24,352 nt of DNA, taken from the IMG/VR virus record IMGVR_UViG_3300030430_003217, positions 1-24,352 of that record; one strand, given 5' to 3'. Positions within the stretch are counted from its first letter, which is position 1. The number at the start of each line of letters is the position of its first letter. Shown piece after piece: positions 1,957 through 18,957 of the stretch. The stretch is from a virus. Below the pieces are notes generated by a model. The model saw nothing but the letters and a program-made list of their open reading frames with translations. It ran no database searches and was not told where the DNA came from. Position numbers and translations under genes: made by a program.

Positions 1957-4130
1957 TATGTTGTAACTCCTTGTCTTCCTTGTCTGTTAAATGCTTGGTT
2001 AATGATGCCAACTATTGTGCTTCTTCTTTCAACCAACAATTCATCAAATCCTGTGGCATCCACAGTTTCAATGTTAAAGTTCACAGTCATTGCATTGCCC
2101 ATTTGGTTGTTTGGTATAATTGTGCCTGCTGTGCCGGGCCTAAAAATTTCGGGGCCCGATTCTCCAACCAGGTAACTTTGGTCTCTACGCACATCACCAC
2201 CTTTTTGTCTTGGGCCTGTGTAAGATGTTGATCTAATTTGTTGAACTTGAGCATAACCTTTTGCCGCCACCAATGCCGCCGCCGCAAGGTTTAACGGGAA
2301 TGGTAACACTTTAAGTGCGTTGGCAATACCTTGTGCTGTTGACACAATCGCTTCAGCAATCGCCGCCGCTTTGGCAATCTTAAATGCTTTTTCACTTGTC
2401 TGTCCTAACACATTGATTACTTCTAGTCCAATGGATTTTGCAAGGTCTACTCTTTGTTTGCCTGACAGTGCTTCTATGTCATTGGTTTTCGCTTGACCTG
2501 ATTTTATCAAATCAATAACTTCTTTTACTTCTCTTTTTCTTGCCGCTATGGCATCTCTTGCTCTGTTGTCTTGAATCTTTCTAACAGCAATGCTGTATTC
2601 TCTTTCGCTTAGAATACCTTCATCTCTTAATCTTTTTAATTGTTTTAATTTTTCTTGTTCTGCTTCGACTTCTGGAAATCTTTCTGCCAACACACCCCCA
2701 ACATCTTTTGCTATGCCTGGCAATGCTTTCTTAGCCGCCGCTAATTGTTTTTCTGATTCTATTTCTTGTAATTTAAGTAAAATTCTTTCTCTTGTTTCCG
2801 CATTCATGCCTTTTAGAACAGTGTGTTCCATTTCATACAATCTACGCAATGCTTCAGTAGGTTGTTTTGCCGCTTCTAATTTTACAATTTCTTTATCTAG
2901 GCCATCAACAATTTTTGTAATTTGTGCTTTTCTTTCTTCTTGTAATGCTATTAAAGCCTTTTGTGCTTTGCTTAATCTTTTTGTTGAATCAGTTGTTGCC
3001 TCCATACCATCGTGTAGACCATTGTAAGATGTTGTAGATTTTTCAGTGGCATCAGTCATGTCCGTAAAGCCATCTACCAATTTCATTATTTCTTTTCTAT
3101 ATGCTACTGCGGCACCTAAAGCAATACCTACCCCTATTGCTGTGATAGGATTTGCCAACATTGCCAATGTGGTTCTTATTACTGCCGCTCTCAACACTAA
3201 GAATGTTGCACTCAATGCCTTTATACCTACTGCAAGTCTGCCTACTCCAACAATCGCACCACCTATAACTTTGGCACCTATGAATACACCAAATGCTATT
3301 TTGATTGTGTCAAGATTGTCTTTAAGGAATAATAATGTTGCACCTACATTTTTACCTAATGCGTTGGCAAAATTTTCACTGCCTTCACTGGCATCAATAA
3401 TTGATCTGGTAATATCTGTCAATGCCGCAGTAAGTCCGCCTTCACCTACTTCATCAGCAAATATGGCAATTTCATCTTGTAAATTAGAAAACGCACCTGT
3501 TAATGTTTGTGCTTGTCTATCAATACCACCTGCAAAATCTGTTTTACCAATGTTTTCAATAACATCTATAATTTCTAAACCATTGTTTTTAATTTCTGTG
3601 GTTGTGCCTTTAAAAATAACTTTTAACTTGTCGCCTTCAGTTTTTACCTTGATACCAAGTTGTTTAAGCATTTCAAATTCACCAGTTGTGGCATTGAACA
3701 CTGCTCTCGCAACTTCATCTATTCTTCTTCCCATACCAGCGGCTATGTTACCCACGCTGGTCATAAAGTCAACAGTCGGATCTAGACCTGCGTTTCTAAA
3801 TGTTATGAACGCACTGGTTACATCCTGAAGTTGAAATGGTGTTTGTTGTGTAAAATCTTTGATTAAACGAAAGGATTTAGCCGCGGCTTGTGTTGATCCT
3901 TCTACTGTGACAAGTGTTGCTCGTAGATCTTCAAACTGTCTTATGGTATTGATTAATCCACGAACAAGTATGCCGGTTCCTATTGCCGCTAAGGCACCTG
4001 CCACTTTTTTGGCAATACCATTAGTTTTACTAAGACTTTTGTTCAGACCATTAATCTGACCTTTTGCCTTGCTTATTGCGGCACCCGTCTTATCTACTAC
4101 GACGAATTCTAGGCGCACCTGATCGGCCAT
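1956..4130 (-). CDS. Tail tape measure protein
   Basis: The protein has 724 residues and sits inside the extended tail tube, setting its length. Sequence features: an N-terminal helical region (KAKGQINGLNKSL, AAAKSFRLIKDFTQQTPFQLQDV) typical of tape measure proteins, strongly hydrophobic segments at about 276-345 suited to membrane passage, a charged coiled-coil region at about 385-540, a further apolar helix at about 583-630, and a C-terminal GESGPEIFRPGTAGTIIPN motif (about 657-675) shared with lambdoid tape measures. At roughly 1.5 angstrom per residue the tail would be near 110 nm (inference). The start overlaps the frameshifted end of the tail chaperone, as in lambda. No lytic transglycosylase or peptidase motif was seen. 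Confidence 0.92.
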   Translation of the reverse strand: MADQVRLEFVVVDKTGAAISKAKGQINGLNKSLSKTNGIAKKVAGALAAIGTGILVRGLINTIRQFEDLRATLVTVEGSTQAAAKSFRLIKDFTQQTPFQLQDVTSAFITFRNAGLDPTVDFMTSVGNIAAGMGRRIDEVARAVFNATTGEFEMLKQLGIKVKTEGDKLKVIFKGTTTEIKNNGLEIIDVIENIGKTDFAGGIDRQAQTLTGAFSNLQDEIAIFADEVGEGGLTAALTDITRSIIDASEGSENFANALGKNVGATLLFLKDNLDTIKIAFGVFIGAKVIGGAIVGVGRLAVGIKALSATFLVLRAAVIRTTLAMLANPITAIGVGIALGAAVAYRKEIMKLVDGFTDMTDATEKSTTSYNGLHDGMEATTDSTKRLSKAQKALIALQEERKAQITKIVDGLDKEIVKLEAAKQPTEALRRLYEMEHTVLKGMNAETRERILLKLQEIESEKQLAAAKKALPGIAKDVGGVLAERFPEVEAEQEKLKQLKRLRDEGILSEREYSIAVRKIQDNRARDAIAARKREVKEVIDLIKSGQAKTNDIEALSGKQRVDLAKSIGLEVINVLGQTSEKAFKIAKAAAIAEAIVSTAQGIANALKVLPFPLNLAAAALVAAKGYAQVQQIRSTSYTGPRQKGGDVRRDQSYLVGESGPEIFRPGTAGTIIPNNQMGNAMTVNFNIETVDATGFDELLVERRSTIVGIINQAFNRQGRQGVTT

Positions 4131-4284
4131 CGTTCAAAACCTTTCGTTCTTCGTCATGCTTCATTTTAAAATATGCTGACCACATGGTCAATTCTAGGAC
4201 ACTAAACTGCATGACTTCTTCTATTGATTTGCCCAGCGTTTCCGCTACTTTGACAACCAATAGAAGTTCAGCGTCCTCTCTTAG
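4090..4284 (-). CDS. Frameshift extension of the tail chaperone (gpT-like), expressed as a gpG-T fusion
   Basis: Reading in the -1 frame after the slippery site continues for 64 codons from CTA (4284-4282) to TAA at 4092-4090. It has no good start codon of its own near the beginning, so it is best read as the tail of a 179-residue fusion beginning at 4628. The segment contains LLLVVKVAETLGKSIEEVMQ and SVLELTMWSAYFKMKHDEER, a pattern (short helix, then EL-W-AY-) characteristic of gpT-type extensions, which bind the tape measure or tail tube. It fills the otherwise empty 151 bases before the tape measure and overlaps the tape measure start by 41 bases. Experimental frameshift efficiency is unknown. 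Confidence 0.8.
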   Translation of the reverse strand, partial: LREDAELLLVVKVAETLGKSIEEVMQFSVLELTMWSAYFKMKHDEERKVLNDGRSGAPRIRRSR

Positions 4285-4628
4285 TTTTTTTCTACTTCCT
4301 CAACTTTGTATTCAGAAGTAGCATTATTTAAAACAGTTGCAATCTTAATTAAAACTGCTGGATCTGTTTCGTGCATCAACGCTGTCTGGTCAAATCTGTT
4401 AAACATAGGTTTGCCATCCTGTGTCAATGCTTTCATAATGATTGATTCAACTAATGCTTCCACAGTGTCACCTTTGGATTGCAGTTGAATAATTTTGCTT
4501 TCAGTTGCAAAAGAATACGCATTTTTGTAATAAATGTCGCATTCCCACTCAGGCACATTCAACTTGTTCAGTTCACTGCCTAATTTGTTTTTGAAATGCT
4601 TTTTAGCATTTTCTAGTATCTTACTCAT
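4281..4628 (-). CDS. Tail assembly chaperone, gpG-like short form
   Basis: This 115-residue protein starts by an ATGA overlap with the upstream gene. It has the expected size and position for the gpG member of a gpG/gpGT pair: just before the tape measure and after the tail tube gene. The centre contains GDTVEALVESIIMKALTQDGKPMF and DPAVLIKIATVLNNA, a helical pattern found in tail chaperones that keep the tape measure soluble before tube assembly. The last codons are GAA AAA AAC before TAA, which forms a textbook slippery heptamer; a fraction of ribosomes should bypass the stop and continue into the downstream frame. Confidence 0.75.
   Translation of the reverse strand: MSKILENAKKHFKNKLGSELNKLNVPEWECDIYYKNAYSFATESKIIQLQSKGDTVEALVESIIMKALTQDGKPMFNRFDQTALMHETDPAVLIKIATVLNNATSEYKVEEVEKN
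4284..4290 (-). promoter_or_regulatory. Programmed -1 ribosomal frameshift slippery site A AAA AAC
   Basis: On the minus strand the heptamer A AAA AAC is in the correct phase (codons GAA AAA AAC, followed at once by the stop TAA). It is among the most efficient known bacterial -1 slippery sequences. The -1 frame opens directly into a conserved-looking gpT-like segment. I see no strong hairpin 5-9 bases downstream; a small AGCG-GAAA-CGCT tetraloop stem lies farther away at 4235-4246. Confidence 0.8.
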
Positions 4629-4951
4629 TTAATATACTTTCTCCTTCTCAATGCCGCTCTAGCAGGCCCTATCATGCCTCGCGGTGCTTGTTTTGATCGC
4701 CCTCGTTCTAAAAGACCAATGTAGGGTGTTCTATTGGAAACTGTTGTGGTTTTTCCCACATTGTTAGAAACAACAGAAGGATTCGAATCTCTTCTCATTT
4801 TCCAATTTCTTTTGGCCCTTCCTGTCTTAACAGGAGTTACTTTTTTTAACTCCTTTAAGGCATTGTGTGCGATACGGGTGCCCAAACGCGATAATTCTCT
4901 TTCTATCGCGTTGAACACCTGATCTACTTTTAGCAGTCTGCCACTAATCAT
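4625..4951 (-). CDS. HK97 gp10-like head-tail joining / neck protein
   Basis: A 108-residue basic protein (many Arg and Lys). The signature is KKVTPVKTGRAKRNWK (about residues 38-53): the TPV-TG-L/A--W motif is characteristic of HK97 gp10-like proteins. It is followed by NRTPYIGLLERGRSKQAPRGMIGPARAALRRR, where the Y---LE-G-S--AP-GM--PA- pattern is also typical of this family. These proteins work at the head-tail junction or tail completion. It lies between the tail tube and tail chaperone genes, later than the usual position before the tail terminator. No clear Shine-Dalgarno precedes the start, but the gap to the tail tube stop is only one base, so coupling is likely. Confidence 0.75.
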   Translation of the reverse strand: MISGRLLKVDQVFNAIERELSRLGTRIAHNALKELKKVTPVKTGRAKRNWKMRRDSNPSVVSNNVGKTTTVSNRTPYIGLLERGRSKQAPRGMIGPARAALRRRKYIK

Positions 4952-8359: not shown

Positions 8360-8506
8360 TTATGATTTTCTTTTCTTTTTGCCTCTTGTAGACGATTTTC
8401 TACCTTTAGACATTGGTTTTCTTTTACCTCTAGTCATTGTGCGTCCTCCTTTCATAATTCTTTTACCAATCAAACCTGCTATTCCGGCTGTTGTTGTTAC
8501 TGGCAT
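8360..8506 (-). CDS. Very basic mini-protein with two in-frame starts, next to the scaffold gene
   Basis: This 48-codon reading frame starts at ATG 8506-8504, seven bases after GGAGG, and overlaps the glycosyltransferase stop by 10 bases. The first part (MPVTTTAGIAGLIGKRIMKG) is a short apolar helix. A second in-frame ATG at 8437 also lies exactly seven bases after GGAGG and would give a 25-residue peptide with 13 Lys or Arg, including KGRKSSTRGKKKRKS. Both starts look functional. Its composition resembles protamine-like or nucleic-acid-binding peptides. The location between the glycan genes and the scaffold suggests a late role, perhaps in packaged DNA or RNA binding, but function is unknown. 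Confidence 0.7.
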   Translation of the reverse strand: MPVTTTAGIAGLIGKRIMKGGRTMTRGKRKPMSKGRKSSTRGKKKRKS

Positions 8507-9246
8507 AATATTTCCTCCAATTTAACTATGATTTCATCTGCTGTAATATGTTTCATTGCTTGAACACACTGTTCACAATATTCATGTTCTGTGTAATGTC
8601 CAAATCCATCTGGATTACAATCAGTGAATCTTACTATTTCTTTGCTTGTTTCATAACCTGTGCAGAAAGGCGTTGTAGCACTGCCATATATTGTTATACT
8701 GGGCACTGATTGATGACCAGCGGCATGATGTAAACCTCCTTCAGTGGTTATTAGACACGCACTATATTTAATCACCAACATTGATTGTCTAAATGTTGTG
8801 TTAATGTTGTGTAGTCCATCAACAGGTTGACTGTTAGGTGGTTGACATCTTAACAATGTATAGTTGGATAATTTTTGTATCAGTTCATCCCAACCATACC
8901 AACATTTCAAAGGATAACGCATACTGTCTGTTTTATAATCAGGATTGATTACAATGTATGGTTTGTGATGTGCCACATTCTCTTGAAACCATTGCATTTC
9001 TTCTTGTGTATATTCAAATGGTGCAGTTTTTGGTGTGTAGGGTCTGTGTTGGTAATACCATCTTTTACCATTGATAGGATGTGTTTCGAAAGGCACTCCT
9101 AATGGATGTATCCAAGGTGTGTGTTGCCACACTGGTTTATTACAAGATTGTTTCCTGCCCTGTCTAAACGGTGCTACTGGTTTGTTTATTGATTTTGAAT
9201 AATGGTATGCTTCCGCACGCCACATCAGATCATCACCTATTCCCAT
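8497..9246 (-). CDS. Glycosyltransferase family 9 (heptosyltransferase)-like protein
   Basis: The protein has 249 residues and GT9 landmarks in order: N-terminal GIGDDLM (2-8), matching the G-GD loop of the first Rossmann domain; PYIVINPDYKTDS (about 96-108) at the start of the second domain; and CLITTEGGLHHAAGHQSVPS (164-183) followed by TIYGSATTPFCTGY, the nucleotide-sugar site motif of the ADP-heptose:LPS heptosyltransferase family (normally S-DTGP-H-A----P---L-G). A cysteine cluster near the C-terminus (C210, C224, C227) also recalls the family. At 249 residues it is short for GT9 (usually 320-350), mainly in the first domain. The start overlaps the FkbM gene by 10 bases. It likely modifies a surface glycan of host or virion. 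Confidence 0.75.
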   Translation of the reverse strand: MGIGDDLMWRAEAYHYSKSINKPVAPFRQGRKQSCNKPVWQHTPWIHPLGVPFETHPINGKRWYYQHRPYTPKTAPFEYTQEEMQWFQENVAHHKPYIVINPDYKTDSMRYPLKCWYGWDELIQKLSNYTLLRCQPPNSQPVDGLHNINTTFRQSMLVIKYSACLITTEGGLHHAAGHQSVPSITIYGSATTPFCTGYETSKEIVRFTDCNPDGFGHYTEHEYCEQCVQAMKHITADEIIVKLEEILCQ

Positions 9247-9926
9247 CGTGTTGTATTTTTTGTGAATATTGTTTCTTTGCCAAACCTTCCTCTTTCAAGG
9301 TAATGCACAGTGCCTAAAAATTCTACTATCTTTCTTTTGACACCTATTTCAATGCCATTCCTTGTTGGCAATTCTAAACACAAAACTAATGTGTTATTCT
9401 TTAACGTTTGCTTTGCGCCTTTCAATACTTTAAGTTCATTGCCTTGCACATCAATCTTCATAAAATCTATTGTTTTTAATTTAAGGTCATCAAGTTTTTT
9501 TGTTTTTATATCAATGCTGTATATGTCTTTGTGAACTGGTTTATCTTTGGTTGGTCCTTGTATAACACCTTCTTCAGATAATCCTACATTGCCACAACTG
9601 CGTGAATCAATATACAATTTACCTGTGCCTGTTTCATCACTCAATGCGTAATCATGTAACACATAATTTTTTACATTTTCTAAATTTTTATGAAAACATT
9701 CTACATTGTCTGGCACTGGTTCAAACACTGTGACCTTCTTAAATTTGTTACACAAATCTCTCGCCCATGTGCCTACATTACCGCCAACATCAACTGCGTG
9801 ATTAAATTGTTTAACAAAAGTTAAAGCGCCTGTGCGTTGTGCCAATTGATACTCATCATATTTTTTGAAATAATCTTCAAAATGTGTGTCCCAATTTGGA
9901 AAATAGTAATTTTTGATTTTTTTCAT
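9237..9926 (-). CDS. FkbM-family SAM-dependent methyltransferase
   Basis: A 229-residue protein with motif I AVDVGGNVGTWARDL (44-58), an acidic residue after the second strand (VTVFEPVPDN, E69) that binds the SAM ribose, and the FkbM signature DFMKIDVQGNELKVLKGA (154-171), followed by CLELP (183-187). These enzymes O-methylate sugars or polyketides; next to a GT9-type transferase, sugar methylation is the likely role. The gene starts by TAATG overlap with the 80-residue gene and overlaps the glycosyltransferase, so the three are co-translated within the structural operon between portal and scaffold. Confidence 0.88.
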   Translation of the reverse strand: MKKIKNYYFPNWDTHFEDYFKKYDEYQLAQRTGALTFVKQFNHAVDVGGNVGTWARDLCNKFKKVTVFEPVPDNVECFHKNLENVKNYVLHDYALSDETGTGKLYIDSRSCGNVGLSEEGVIQGPTKDKPVHKDIYSIDIKTKKLDDLKLKTIDFMKIDVQGNELKVLKGAKQTLKNNTLVLCLELPTRNGIEIGVKRKIVEFLGTVHYLERGRFGKETIFTKNTTRWE

Positions 9927-10168
9927 TAATGAAAATATCCGTCTTCATGCCTGTGATGTTTTATTTTTCGTTCTCTATCAATGATTTCTTTTATTCGCTT
10001 TGGCAATAAGTTTTTTAGTTTACGCAACAATTTTCTTGCTTCTTGTCCGTTCCTTTTGACATTCTTTTGTTCAAACATATGGATTTCAAAATTGTATTTG
10101 TCAATGATGTCGCGTAATTCTTTTTCTAATCCTGTTATGAATTCTCTTTCTGGCACATATTTTCCCAT
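9926..10168 (-). CDS. Small charged helical phage protein, function unknown
   Basis: An 80-residue protein joined to its neighbours by TAATG overlaps on both sides. It is almost wholly helical and highly charged (GLEKELRDIIDKYNFEIHMF, then NVKRNGQEARKLLRKLKNLL and KRIKEIIDRERKIKHH). The KNVKRNGQEARKLL-LK-L pattern is one I associate with a widespread small phage protein family of unknown role. The end is rich in histidine (HHRHEDGYFH). Its place just after the portal and a small basic peptide suggests a packaging or head-related role, which is not shown by sequence. Confidence 0.6.
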   Translation of the reverse strand: MGKYVPEREFITGLEKELRDIIDKYNFEIHMFEQKNVKRNGQEARKLLRKLKNLLPKRIKEIIDRERKIKHHRHEDGYFH

Positions 10169-10293
10169 TATCGTCCTTGTCCTATATACTTCTTATAGTT
10201 ACGCTTTTCGCTCTTGTTCAACCTCTTCTTGTGGCGTCCAAGTTTTTTTGGTTTCTCCCTTACTTCAAATTCTTTGAATTTGATACGGGCCAT
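10168..10293 (-). CDS. 41-residue basic peptide after the portal gene
   Basis: Between portal and the 80-residue gene lies a complete 41-codon frame, starting with TAATG at the portal stop and ending with TAATG at the next start; both overlaps argue that it is real. The peptide is rich in Lys and Arg: MARIKFKEFEVREKPKK, then LGRHKKRLNKSEKRN and the ending YKKYIGQGR. Short peptides with a GRHKK-LNK-EKR--KKY-GQGR pattern occur in marine phage genomes as I recall, with no known function. Nucleic acid binding is plausible from charge. Confidence 0.75.
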   Translation of the reverse strand: MARIKFKEFEVREKPKKLGRHKKRLNKSEKRNYKKYIGQGR

Positions 10294-16899: not shown

Positions 16900-18957
16900 T
16901 TAACTGTTGTCATCTGTTTGTGTAGTCGACTCACAATGGAATAATGCCACCGTATTGCTGTCATTTGTGAATGCAGAAGTTGGCACTGTGATATTGCTTG
17001 TGCTGTGTGCGTATCTTGTGGTGTTTGACACTCTTATTTCATCTATGGTATTGATAGTTCCTGTGTTGTTTCCTTCACCTGCTCTATAATTTCCAAAATA
17101 AAGTTCTGTGGCTGTGGTGATGCTGTGTGTTGCACTGACTTTGTGTGTGCCGTCCAACCATAGATGGAATGATCCTGTGCCGTCGTATTGCATTGCAATA
17201 TGATGGAAACTGGTGCCTGGATTGCCAAGATTTGTTTCACTGCCGTCATGTGTGAAATAAAGATTTCCGTTTGAATACGTGTGCAGTGTGAGATGGTTTG
17301 AACTGGTTGGGAAATTGTCGTTGCTGATGCCTGTTGTTGAAAATACTTTTGTGGTTTTGTTAGATGTGCCACCAGCACTTAATTTAAATCTAAATTCAAC
17401 TGTGCAGGCCACATTGTCATCGAATTCAAAACTGGATGGGAATGCAATATAACCGTTTGAACCGTTAGCACTCAATTGTAGTGCATTGTTGAACACACCA
17501 TTGGATGTGCTTGTGAAACTACCGTTGTTCCATGTTGATAACTGTCTTGGTGTTTCGCCCTCGACGGTTGTGGTATCACCGTTTGTTCCGTCAAAATGTA
17601 GCAACACCTGTGTGTTACTATCGTCTGCGAATGCTGAAGAAGTAGGTGTAAAGTTTGAAGTGTATCTTGCTGTTTTACTCATTCTGTATTCATCTATATA
17701 ACCACCAAAGTTATCTGTTGTGCCTCCCACTGTGCCTACCCATGTTGTTTGCCATTGATCAAAAGCAGGTTTGTTTGAATCAGATACAGAAGCACCTGCA
17801 GTGCCGTCTAAAAATGTTCTGTAGGTGCTACCATCCCATGTTATTGCAACATGGTGCCATGTGTTTGCTGATGCAGTTCCTATTGTTGCATTGTTTAAAG
17901 AATAAGCACCCGCGGTAGTAAAAAAATAAGTTTTTACATTTGAACCGGACAAACCAACAATCCAGTTGAATCCACCGTGTCCTGATCCACCCCATACACC
18001 TGCCATCCATTGTGTGCCACCTATACTGTCTGCTCTAAAGAAAAATTCTATTGTAAATTGATCACCCCATTCTGGTTGTGCAAATTCGGCGTGACCATCA
18101 TTATCGTTCAGTCTTAAACTTGTGGTTCCAAATTTTGCTTGTGCTGATGACAGTGTAGGTGCTGTGCTACCTGTTGTGTTTGTTTGTATGTGTATGTCCA
18201 ATGGTCTCAAATCACCAATGTCGTCCACAATGTGGAAGTTACCGTTTGATCCGTAAGGACCGTCTCCATGTAATAATAATCTTGTGTTAACGTCTTGTGT
18301 AAATGCTGATGTTGGCACAGTGATTGATGCACCTGAGTATCTTGCTGTGTCTGAAATTCTAAATTCATCTATGTTGCCTGGTGGTGTGTAATTTTCTGCT
18401 CCAATTGAATTGTGCCATATTCTTAATTCTTCGTGTGAGTAATTGTTTGAGTCCGAGTATGTTCCACCACTCTGTGTGCCGTCAACATAAAGACTTGTGG
18501 TTCCTGATTCTCGCACCAATGCAATATGTTGCCATTGATTGGCACTTAAAACATTCATAGCAGATATTCGGTTTGCTGAATTTACCCATAGATATAAATC
18601 ATCTGCTGATCCGTCTGAGGGATATGAATACAATAATATTTTTGCACCGTTGGAACCATTACGAAAATCAATTGCAAATCTATCTAAAGATGTTAGATAT
18701 TGGAACCATTCAATTGTGAAATCTCCTGTGCCAAAGTCTAGATTGTTATCGCTGTTATCATCCATTTGCAGATAATCACCTGTGCCATCAAATAGGATAC
18801 TGCCTCCCCGTGTTCCAGTATTAAATTTATATCTTGCATTTGAAAGTTGTGCATCACCATTTGCAATAACATTCAAAAATCCTGTGGTTCTTGGATCTGC
18901 TGACGCCGTTGTTAATACTTTGGATAATGAATTAATTCTAAATGCACCTAATGGCAT
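16900..18957 (-). CDS. Triple LamG/concanavalin A-like domain virion protein
   Basis: A 685-residue protein with three laminin-G-like lectin domains, at about residues 50-230, 265-455 and 485-675. Each has the same landmarks: an opening strand (SILFDGTGDYLQ, TSLRLNDNDGHAEF, ALQLSANGSNGYIAF), FTIE-F or CTVEFRF, a W-H-A or F-HIA segment before the ligand edge (WQHIALVRESG, WHHVAITWDGS, FHHIAMQYDGT), DGT, and IDE-R-S-T-RY (IDEFRISDTARY, IDEYRMSKTARY, IDEIRVSNTTRY), followed by a PTSAF--D-NT-LL-H linker. LamG domains bind sugars, often with calcium. The protein probably binds host surface polysaccharide. It starts after AGGAGACACA, 8 bases past the upstream fibre gene. Confidence 0.85.
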   Translation of the reverse strand: MPLGAFRINSLSKVLTTASADPRTTGFLNVIANGDAQLSNARYKFNTGTRGGSILFDGTGDYLQMDDNSDNNLDFGTGDFTIEWFQYLTSLDRFAIDFRNGSNGAKILLYSYPSDGSADDLYLWVNSANRISAMNVLSANQWQHIALVRESGTTSLYVDGTQSGGTYSDSNNYSHEELRIWHNSIGAENYTPPGNIDEFRISDTARYSGASITVPTSAFTQDVNTRLLLHGDGPYGSNGNFHIVDDIGDLRPLDIHIQTNTTGSTAPTLSSAQAKFGTTSLRLNDNDGHAEFAQPEWGDQFTIEFFFRADSIGGTQWMAGVWGGSGHGGFNWIVGLSGSNVKTYFFTTAGAYSLNNATIGTASANTWHHVAITWDGSTYRTFLDGTAGASVSDSNKPAFDQWQTTWVGTVGGTTDNFGGYIDEYRMSKTARYTSNFTPTSSAFADDSNTQVLLHFDGTNGDTTTVEGETPRQLSTWNNGSFTSTSNGVFNNALQLSANGSNGYIAFPSSFEFDDNVACTVEFRFKLSAGGTSNKTTKVFSTTGISNDNFPTSSNHLTLHTYSNGNLYFTHDGSETNLGNPGTSFHHIAMQYDGTGSFHLWLDGTHKVSATHSITTATELYFGNYRAGEGNNTGTINTIDEIRVSNTTRYAHSTSNITVPTSAFTNDSNTVALFHCESTTQTDDNS

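Follow-up and report, generated by a model that had tools for sequence, protein, structure and literature searches.

A putative programmed -1 frameshift, which would join a gpG-like tail assembly chaperone to a gpT-like domain, was identified in IMG/VR record IMGVR_UViG_3300030430_003217. This record, all 24,352 bases of which were analyzed and are called the window below, comes from an uncultured aquatic phage with its head-tail module on the minus strand. With a probability of roughly 90%, the locus represents a gpG/gpGT tail assembly chaperone frameshift of a siphophage-type virus, and its signal is composite, consisting of an upstream GAGG, a slippery heptamer, the zero-frame stop codon, and a long-range stem. 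Frameshifting in tail assembly chaperone genes is among the commonest recoding events, and the two products must be made in a balanced ratio for tails to assemble. A fusion of this kind ahead of the tape measure gene had been proposed in a first-pass annotation made from the sequence alone, and the proposal is supported by conservation, by the ratio of nonsynonymous to synonymous substitution (dN/dS), by a match to phrog_16513, by similarity to the HK97 chaperone fold, and by the annotation of phage RcCronus.

The chaperone gene (4628-4281, minus strand, as are all window features below) is a small gene between the tail tube and tape measure genes, as is typical of the gpG/gpGT class, and its 115-amino-acid zero-frame product ends with the codons GTA GAA AAA AAC TAA. 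Direct reading of these codons showed the slippery heptamer A_AAA_AAC at 4290-4284, in phase for tandem slippage, with the zero-frame stop codon TAA adjoining it at 4283-4281. From base 4284 the -1 frame was open for 64 codons (4284-4093; LREDAELLL...RIRRSR), and its stop codon (4092-4090) lay 41 nucleotides (nt) inside the tape measure open reading frame (ORF). Both the in-phase heptamer and the 64 open codons ending inside the tape measure start had been noted in the first-pass annotation. The predicted gpG-gpT-like fusion is 179 amino acids long, as also stated there, and reads ...VEEVEKNLRED... across the junction; the 151-base gap given there, from the chaperone stop to the start of the tape measure gene, is in fact 150 bases. 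As in the rest of the class, there was a slippery sequence near the end of the G part and a -1 frame that remained open beyond the stop.

In protein searches, the G part retrieved 21 loci, the T part 35, and a T profile 80; these sets overlap, and isolate and named phages were added to them. Among 62 distinct related loci, 54 had AAAAAAC, three GGGAAAC, and one AAAAAAG. The zero-frame stop followed directly in 56 of these 58 heptamer-bearing loci and one codon further on in the other two, and the -1 frame was open and homologous in all 58. A homologous -1 frame was also present in the four loci without a heptamer. Stops in the -1 frame of relatives had been named beforehand as evidence that would speak against a frameshift, as had relatives without the heptamer, which are considered below. 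The first-pass annotation had also called for a test of purifying selection, and dN/dS of the -1 extension was about 0-0.3, similar to that of the zero-frame part. These values were taken from close pairs alone, because synonymous sites were saturated across all diverged pairs and the corresponding ratio of proportions (pN/pS) was uninformative there. This comparison supports the view that the -1 frame encodes a conserved T-like domain under purifying selection, as expected of gpG/gpGT. It is vanishingly improbable that the junction reflects a sequencing or assembly error or a decaying gene, since the frame change itself is all that would suggest one, while the same junction recurred in dozens of independent contigs and isolate genomes with purifying selection on both sides of it.

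A conserved LxEDxEL block opened the -1 frame at its first codon, which requires that translation run across the junction and favors a fusion over a separate start. If the gpT-like frame were instead a separate small gene, translated without frameshifting from an internal start or by reinitiation after TAA, it could begin at the TTG at 4260, which opens a 56-amino-acid ORF (4260-4090), and GAGG sequences do occur near the stop. However, the LxEDxEL block lies upstream of this TTG, the TTG itself was not conserved (codon 9 was TTG in five sequences, CTT in five, CTA in three, CTG in three, and TTA in three), and the near-invariant heptamer would be left without a reason. This alternative was judged very unlikely. 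Equally improbable is that slippage of RNA polymerase on the run of A residues, rather than of the ribosome, makes the -1 product. The run is seven A long in the window and nine in the pelagiphage relatives HTVC026P and HTVC202P, but the run was just six A long in many relatives (TCAAAAAAC, GGAAAAAAC), three relatives had GGGAAAC, and four had CAAAGGAA or GAAAGGAA, which are too short for polymerase slippage and yet are accompanied by the stem and the -1 frame. An independent T start, transcriptional slippage, and assembly error were thus each tested and rejected, and ribosomal frameshifting is the reading followed here.

Synonymous diversity, relative to codon usage, fell to 0.18 of expectation in a window of codons centered on the slip site, and the low values extended from codon -5 to codon +6. 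Downstream of the slip site this reduction can be ascribed to base pairing.

The products themselves also resembled tail assembly chaperones. The 115-amino-acid zero-frame product matched the tail assembly chaperone families phrog_344 (E value 2.7e-5) and phrog_16513 (1.4e-3), and the 179-amino-acid fusion matched phrog_16513 over residues 3-156 with an E value of 1.9e-8, stronger than either part alone. The extension gave weak matches to phrog_26456 and phrog_337, the latter a "tail protein" family that was matched by 13 of the 26 aligned extensions. An AlphaFold model of the 115-amino-acid part (predicted local distance difference test score 81.7) was most similar to the HK97 tail assembly chaperone, PDB 2OB9 (Z 10.8, root-mean-square deviation 2.8, 102 residues), with a Z score far above those of the following entries, even though sequence identity was only 14%. 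The model thus supports an HK97 tail assembly chaperone fold for the zero-frame product, and the 64-amino-acid extension was predicted to form two long helices with a short helix between them. Sequence searches of the PDB gave no credible relative for the G part; the T profile retrieved mostly designed repeat proteins there, and these matches were judged compositional and rejected.

A long-range stem was found downstream of the slip site. The sequence AGGACACTGAA, whose first base is 6 nt past the heptamer, is complementary to TTCAGTGTCCT in extension codons 27-30. The 5' arm occupies 4277-4265 and the 3' arm 4208-4196, with an 11-bp core (4277-4267 and 4206-4196) that is lengthened to 13 bp in the window. 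The first-pass annotation had described a canonical downstream hairpin as seemingly absent, and by eye the stem does look absent because its arms are about 70 nt apart. An AGCG-GAAA-CGCT tetraloop hairpin had been noticed about 38 bases away; it is present 37 nt past the heptamer (4246-4235), and in the fold of 4283-4184 it is the predicted apex of the larger structure rather than the sole structure.

RNAalifold recovered the long-range stem unaided from 28 sequences. Across these sequences 94.5% of the cells in the stem were paired, compared with 26-38% when one arm was slid. Four pairs were changed on both sides, and the covariation score was matched in none of 500 shuffles. Because the stem region is coding, a second null was added in which synonymous codons were resampled 5000 times with all proteins kept; 10.35 of 11 pairs were formed, compared with 8.08 +/- 0.24 expected and a maximum of 9.0 in any resampling. 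The minimum free energy of the 4283-4184 fold was -35.8 kcal/mol (z -5.55 against dinucleotide shuffles and -5.3 against synonymous recodings). On a tree of the zero-frame protein, the fifth stem pair was U-A in three separately placed lineages and C-G elsewhere, and the most variable pairs had changed state at least 5-13 times, counts that are indicative since the tree is largely weakly resolved. In a scan of the minus strand of the window, a comparably strong stem with a range of 60-110 nt was found at only one other site, 1193-1199. Rfam gave no match up to E = 1 for window 4000-4700, and the composite signal is absent from that database.

Signals of the dnaX/IS911 type have a conserved structure 5-9 nt downstream of the slip site, as given in PMC4066793 and in the relevant passages of a review (PMC5009743), and the spacing of 6 nt found here, to a stem that covaries, agrees with this. 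The stem probably sets the frequency of slippage. It is improbable, if less so than the alternatives above, that the frameshift is real and the stem serves tape measure translation, mRNA stability, or a function at the DNA level. The 3' arm does end 66 nt ahead of the tape measure ATG, and stimulation by the stem is itself inferred, but the ribosome-binding region of the tape measure gene lies outside both arms. In addition, the start of the stem was fixed at 6 nt past the heptamer in two phage groups with unlike stem sequences and loop lengths, and a stem was found close downstream of the slippery tetramer even in relatives lacking the heptamer.

In those four loci (L019, L021, L141, and L142) the heptamer was replaced by CAAAGGAA (then TAA) or GAAAGGAA, which gives the tetramer A_AAG, and this shifts more readily than any other tetramer in E. 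coli (PMC4066793). Stem arms of differing sequence were found at the homologous place: TCCAACGTTG/CAACGTTGGA and TCCAATGTTGA/TCAACATTGGA in L021 and L141, and CCAACACAGA/TCTGTGTTGG in L019. In L142 the stem was weaker and interrupted, so that a clear long-range stem was present in three of the four. This suggests that the slip motif was switched while the putative stimulator was kept. Since these loci retained the homologous -1 frame, A_AAG, and, in three cases, the stem, they extend the frameshift claim rather than refute it. Separately, Pelagibacter phage HTVC111P (L030, 18113-18228) was observed to have AAAAAAG right before TAA and a compact local 7-bp hairpin, with no long-range stem.

The Shine-Dalgarno-like GAGG lies 7 nt ahead of the heptamer (4301-4298, positions -11 to -8) and is a probable upstream stimulator. 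The Glu codon at this site was GAG in 37 of 41 distinct sequences, compared with 15% GAG elsewhere in the gene, and Shine-Dalgarno-like 4-mers were confined to positions -13 to -10. Shared ancestry inflates the formal p-value of this GAG preference; the position of GAGG is fixed and recurs in the CRP-823 group described below. Counted from the end of GAGG to the second base, the spacing was 8 nt, which falls inside the interval of 6-17 nt used by Sharma et al. (PMC4066793).

A second group with the same arrangement consisted of roseophages related to CRP-823 and CRP-406 (L025 and L143-L224; 52 distinct sequences). All of these had AAAAAAC followed directly by TAA or TGA, with GAGG at the same place. 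The group also had a 12-bp stem, running from 6 nt to about 108 nt downstream, which differed from that of the window group in sequence and in its longer loop. It was 96.8% paired in 34 sequences and recovered by RNAalifold, with three doubly changed pairs and covariation that was matched in none of 500 shuffles. As judged from these comparisons, the composite signal of GAGG, heptamer, stop, and stem that is kept in the two groups is a newly recognized layout of putative stimulators.

Closing stems were also observed at lambda-type sites. In lambda (L225, 417-494; NC_001416, about 10116-10193) and in L226-L312, a stem of 8-10 bp lay 5-7 nt downstream and enclosed a stable inner hairpin. The lambda stem itself (GGTGAGC / GCTTGCC arms) was 8 bp long and 7 nt past GGGAAAG, and its single-sequence fold had a z of -1.45 against synonymous recodings. 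Among 36 distinct lambda-like sequences 7.8 of 8 pairs were formed, compared with 5.1 by codon resampling, and one pair showed a clear double change (G-C to A-U). It is suggestive that the lambda closing stem is the same kind of element, and it was left as a lead because the sequences are closely related and only that one pair was clearly doubly changed. We tentatively raise the possibility, which we rate at somewhat below even, that long-range closing stems 5-8 nt past the slip site have been overlooked as a general stimulator of gpG/gpGT frameshifting, that they occur with unrelated sequences in three or more phage groups (among them the window group, CRP-823, and the lambda-like set), and that they set the gpG:gpGT ratio. 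If so, a determinant of this ratio, in lambda as well, would be directly testable by compensatory mutation.

Among known systems, the locus resembles lambda gpG/gpGT in organization. Both have the gene order tail tube, G, T in the -1 frame, and tape measure, and in both the T-like frame overlaps the tape measure start and a tandem-slippage heptamer lies near the end of G. In lambda the heptamer is G_GGA_AAG and the zero-frame stop follows 15 nt further on, whereas A_AAA_AAC adjoins the stop in the window. This zero distance is unusual, since slip site and zero-frame stop were on average 26 and 36 nt apart in two published sets (PMC10885494). The relevant passages of two reviews (PMC5009743, PMC7618472) name neither a stimulator for lambda nor what sets the ratio at lambda-type sites. 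The Rhodobacter phages RcCronus and RcRhea (Cronusvirus) have a homologous fusion with the stop right after the slip site, and in RcCronus, a distant relative, the fusion is annotated as a joined frameshift product; these phages differ from the window in having the heptamer G_GGA_AAC and a GC-rich local hairpin instead of the long-range stem. The closest named phage was DSL-LC06 of the proposed "Nanhuiviridae" (PMC10611076), with 56% identity in the fusion and 56% in the terminase. It has the same heptamer, adjoining stop, and stem; unlike the window it is a freshwater genome, and its frameshift is unannotated and unmentioned in PMC10611076. The bacterial dnaX and IS911 signals likewise combine an upstream Shine-Dalgarno-like sequence, an A-rich heptamer, and a downstream stem, which in IS911 is a three-way-junction structure according to a review passage (PMC5009743), but they have A_AAA_AAG rather than A_AAA_AAC and occur in other genes, without homology. 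Every testable feature of the very common gpG/gpGT class was found at the window locus, which is therefore regarded as a new member of the class.

From the sequence, its conservation and covariation, selection, and the fold match, we infer slippage itself, its level, stimulation by the stem and GAGG, and a role in assembly. Most ribosomes would reach TAA and release the 115-amino-acid chaperone, while a minority would shift back by one base at A_AAA_AAC, producing the 179-amino-acid fusion. If the analogy with lambda holds, the tape measure protein would be coated by many short copies, and a few long copies would recruit the tail tube protein. The level of slippage is probably set jointly by GAGG 7 nt upstream, the weak heptamer, the adjoining stop, and the 11-13 bp stem 6 nt downstream. 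GAGG could pair with the anti-Shine-Dalgarno sequence and so pause or push the ribosome. With the heptamer in the P and A sites, the stem should sit at the mRNA entrance of the ribosome, the place where stimulators act according to a review passage (PMC5009743). Because the stop adjoins the heptamer, ribosomes that stay in the zero frame would terminate after opening no more than the base of the stem.

Several observations weigh against this interpretation. The GAGG spacing of 7 nt is shorter than the 9-14 nt that Atkins et al. cite in the pertinent passage (PMC5009743). Several stem pairs were broken in a few loci, and in HTVC026P and HTVC202P, which keep the heptamer and stop, folding did not find a comparable stem. 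Pfam gave no match for the G or T part of the window. In E. coli, A_AAA_AAC slips with low efficiency (PMC4066793), so the earlier suggestion that slippage on the last sense codon is an efficient arrangement found no support. A weak heptamer would be consistent with a low ratio such as that of lambda, which needs only about 30:1 gpG:gpGT according to a review passage (PMC5009743).

The order of genes in the minus-strand module was terminase, portal position, scaffold position, major capsid, tail terminator, major tail protein, chaperone, and tape measure, with the portal and scaffold assigned by gene order by reference to HTVC111P. The tape measure gene (4130-1956, ATG at 4130, 724 amino acids) matched phrog_1716 (E value 6e-41), phrog_1538, and PF20155 (TMP_3). 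The major tail protein gene (5351-4953; phrog_1407, E value 1e-13) encodes the tail tube protein, which is the expected partner of the T domain, and a small tail-completion-like gene (4951-4625) lies between it and the chaperone gene. Glycosyltransferase family 9-like and FkbM methyltransferase-like genes, possibly cargo, were found within the head gene module (8497-9926). A GNAT acetyltransferase-like gene was found among the tail genes (249-743), and an N-acetyltransferase in DSL-LC06 is mentioned in the Dishui Lake paper (PMC10611076). A 685-amino-acid protein with three Laminin G/concanavalin-like domains (16900-18957) is likely a tail fiber or adhesin.

These results have a bearing on how such signals are recognized, as a genuine stimulator with arms 60-80 nt apart can escape notice when a site is inspected visually or folded in a 50-nt window, and so be recorded as "no hairpin visible". 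They also add to annotation, since DSL-LC06, CRP-823, and the HTVC phages, the nearest named relatives, carry an extension that is not yet annotated. The compact signal common to two aquatic phage groups provides a concrete hypothesis for how the ratio of the chaperone products may be set.

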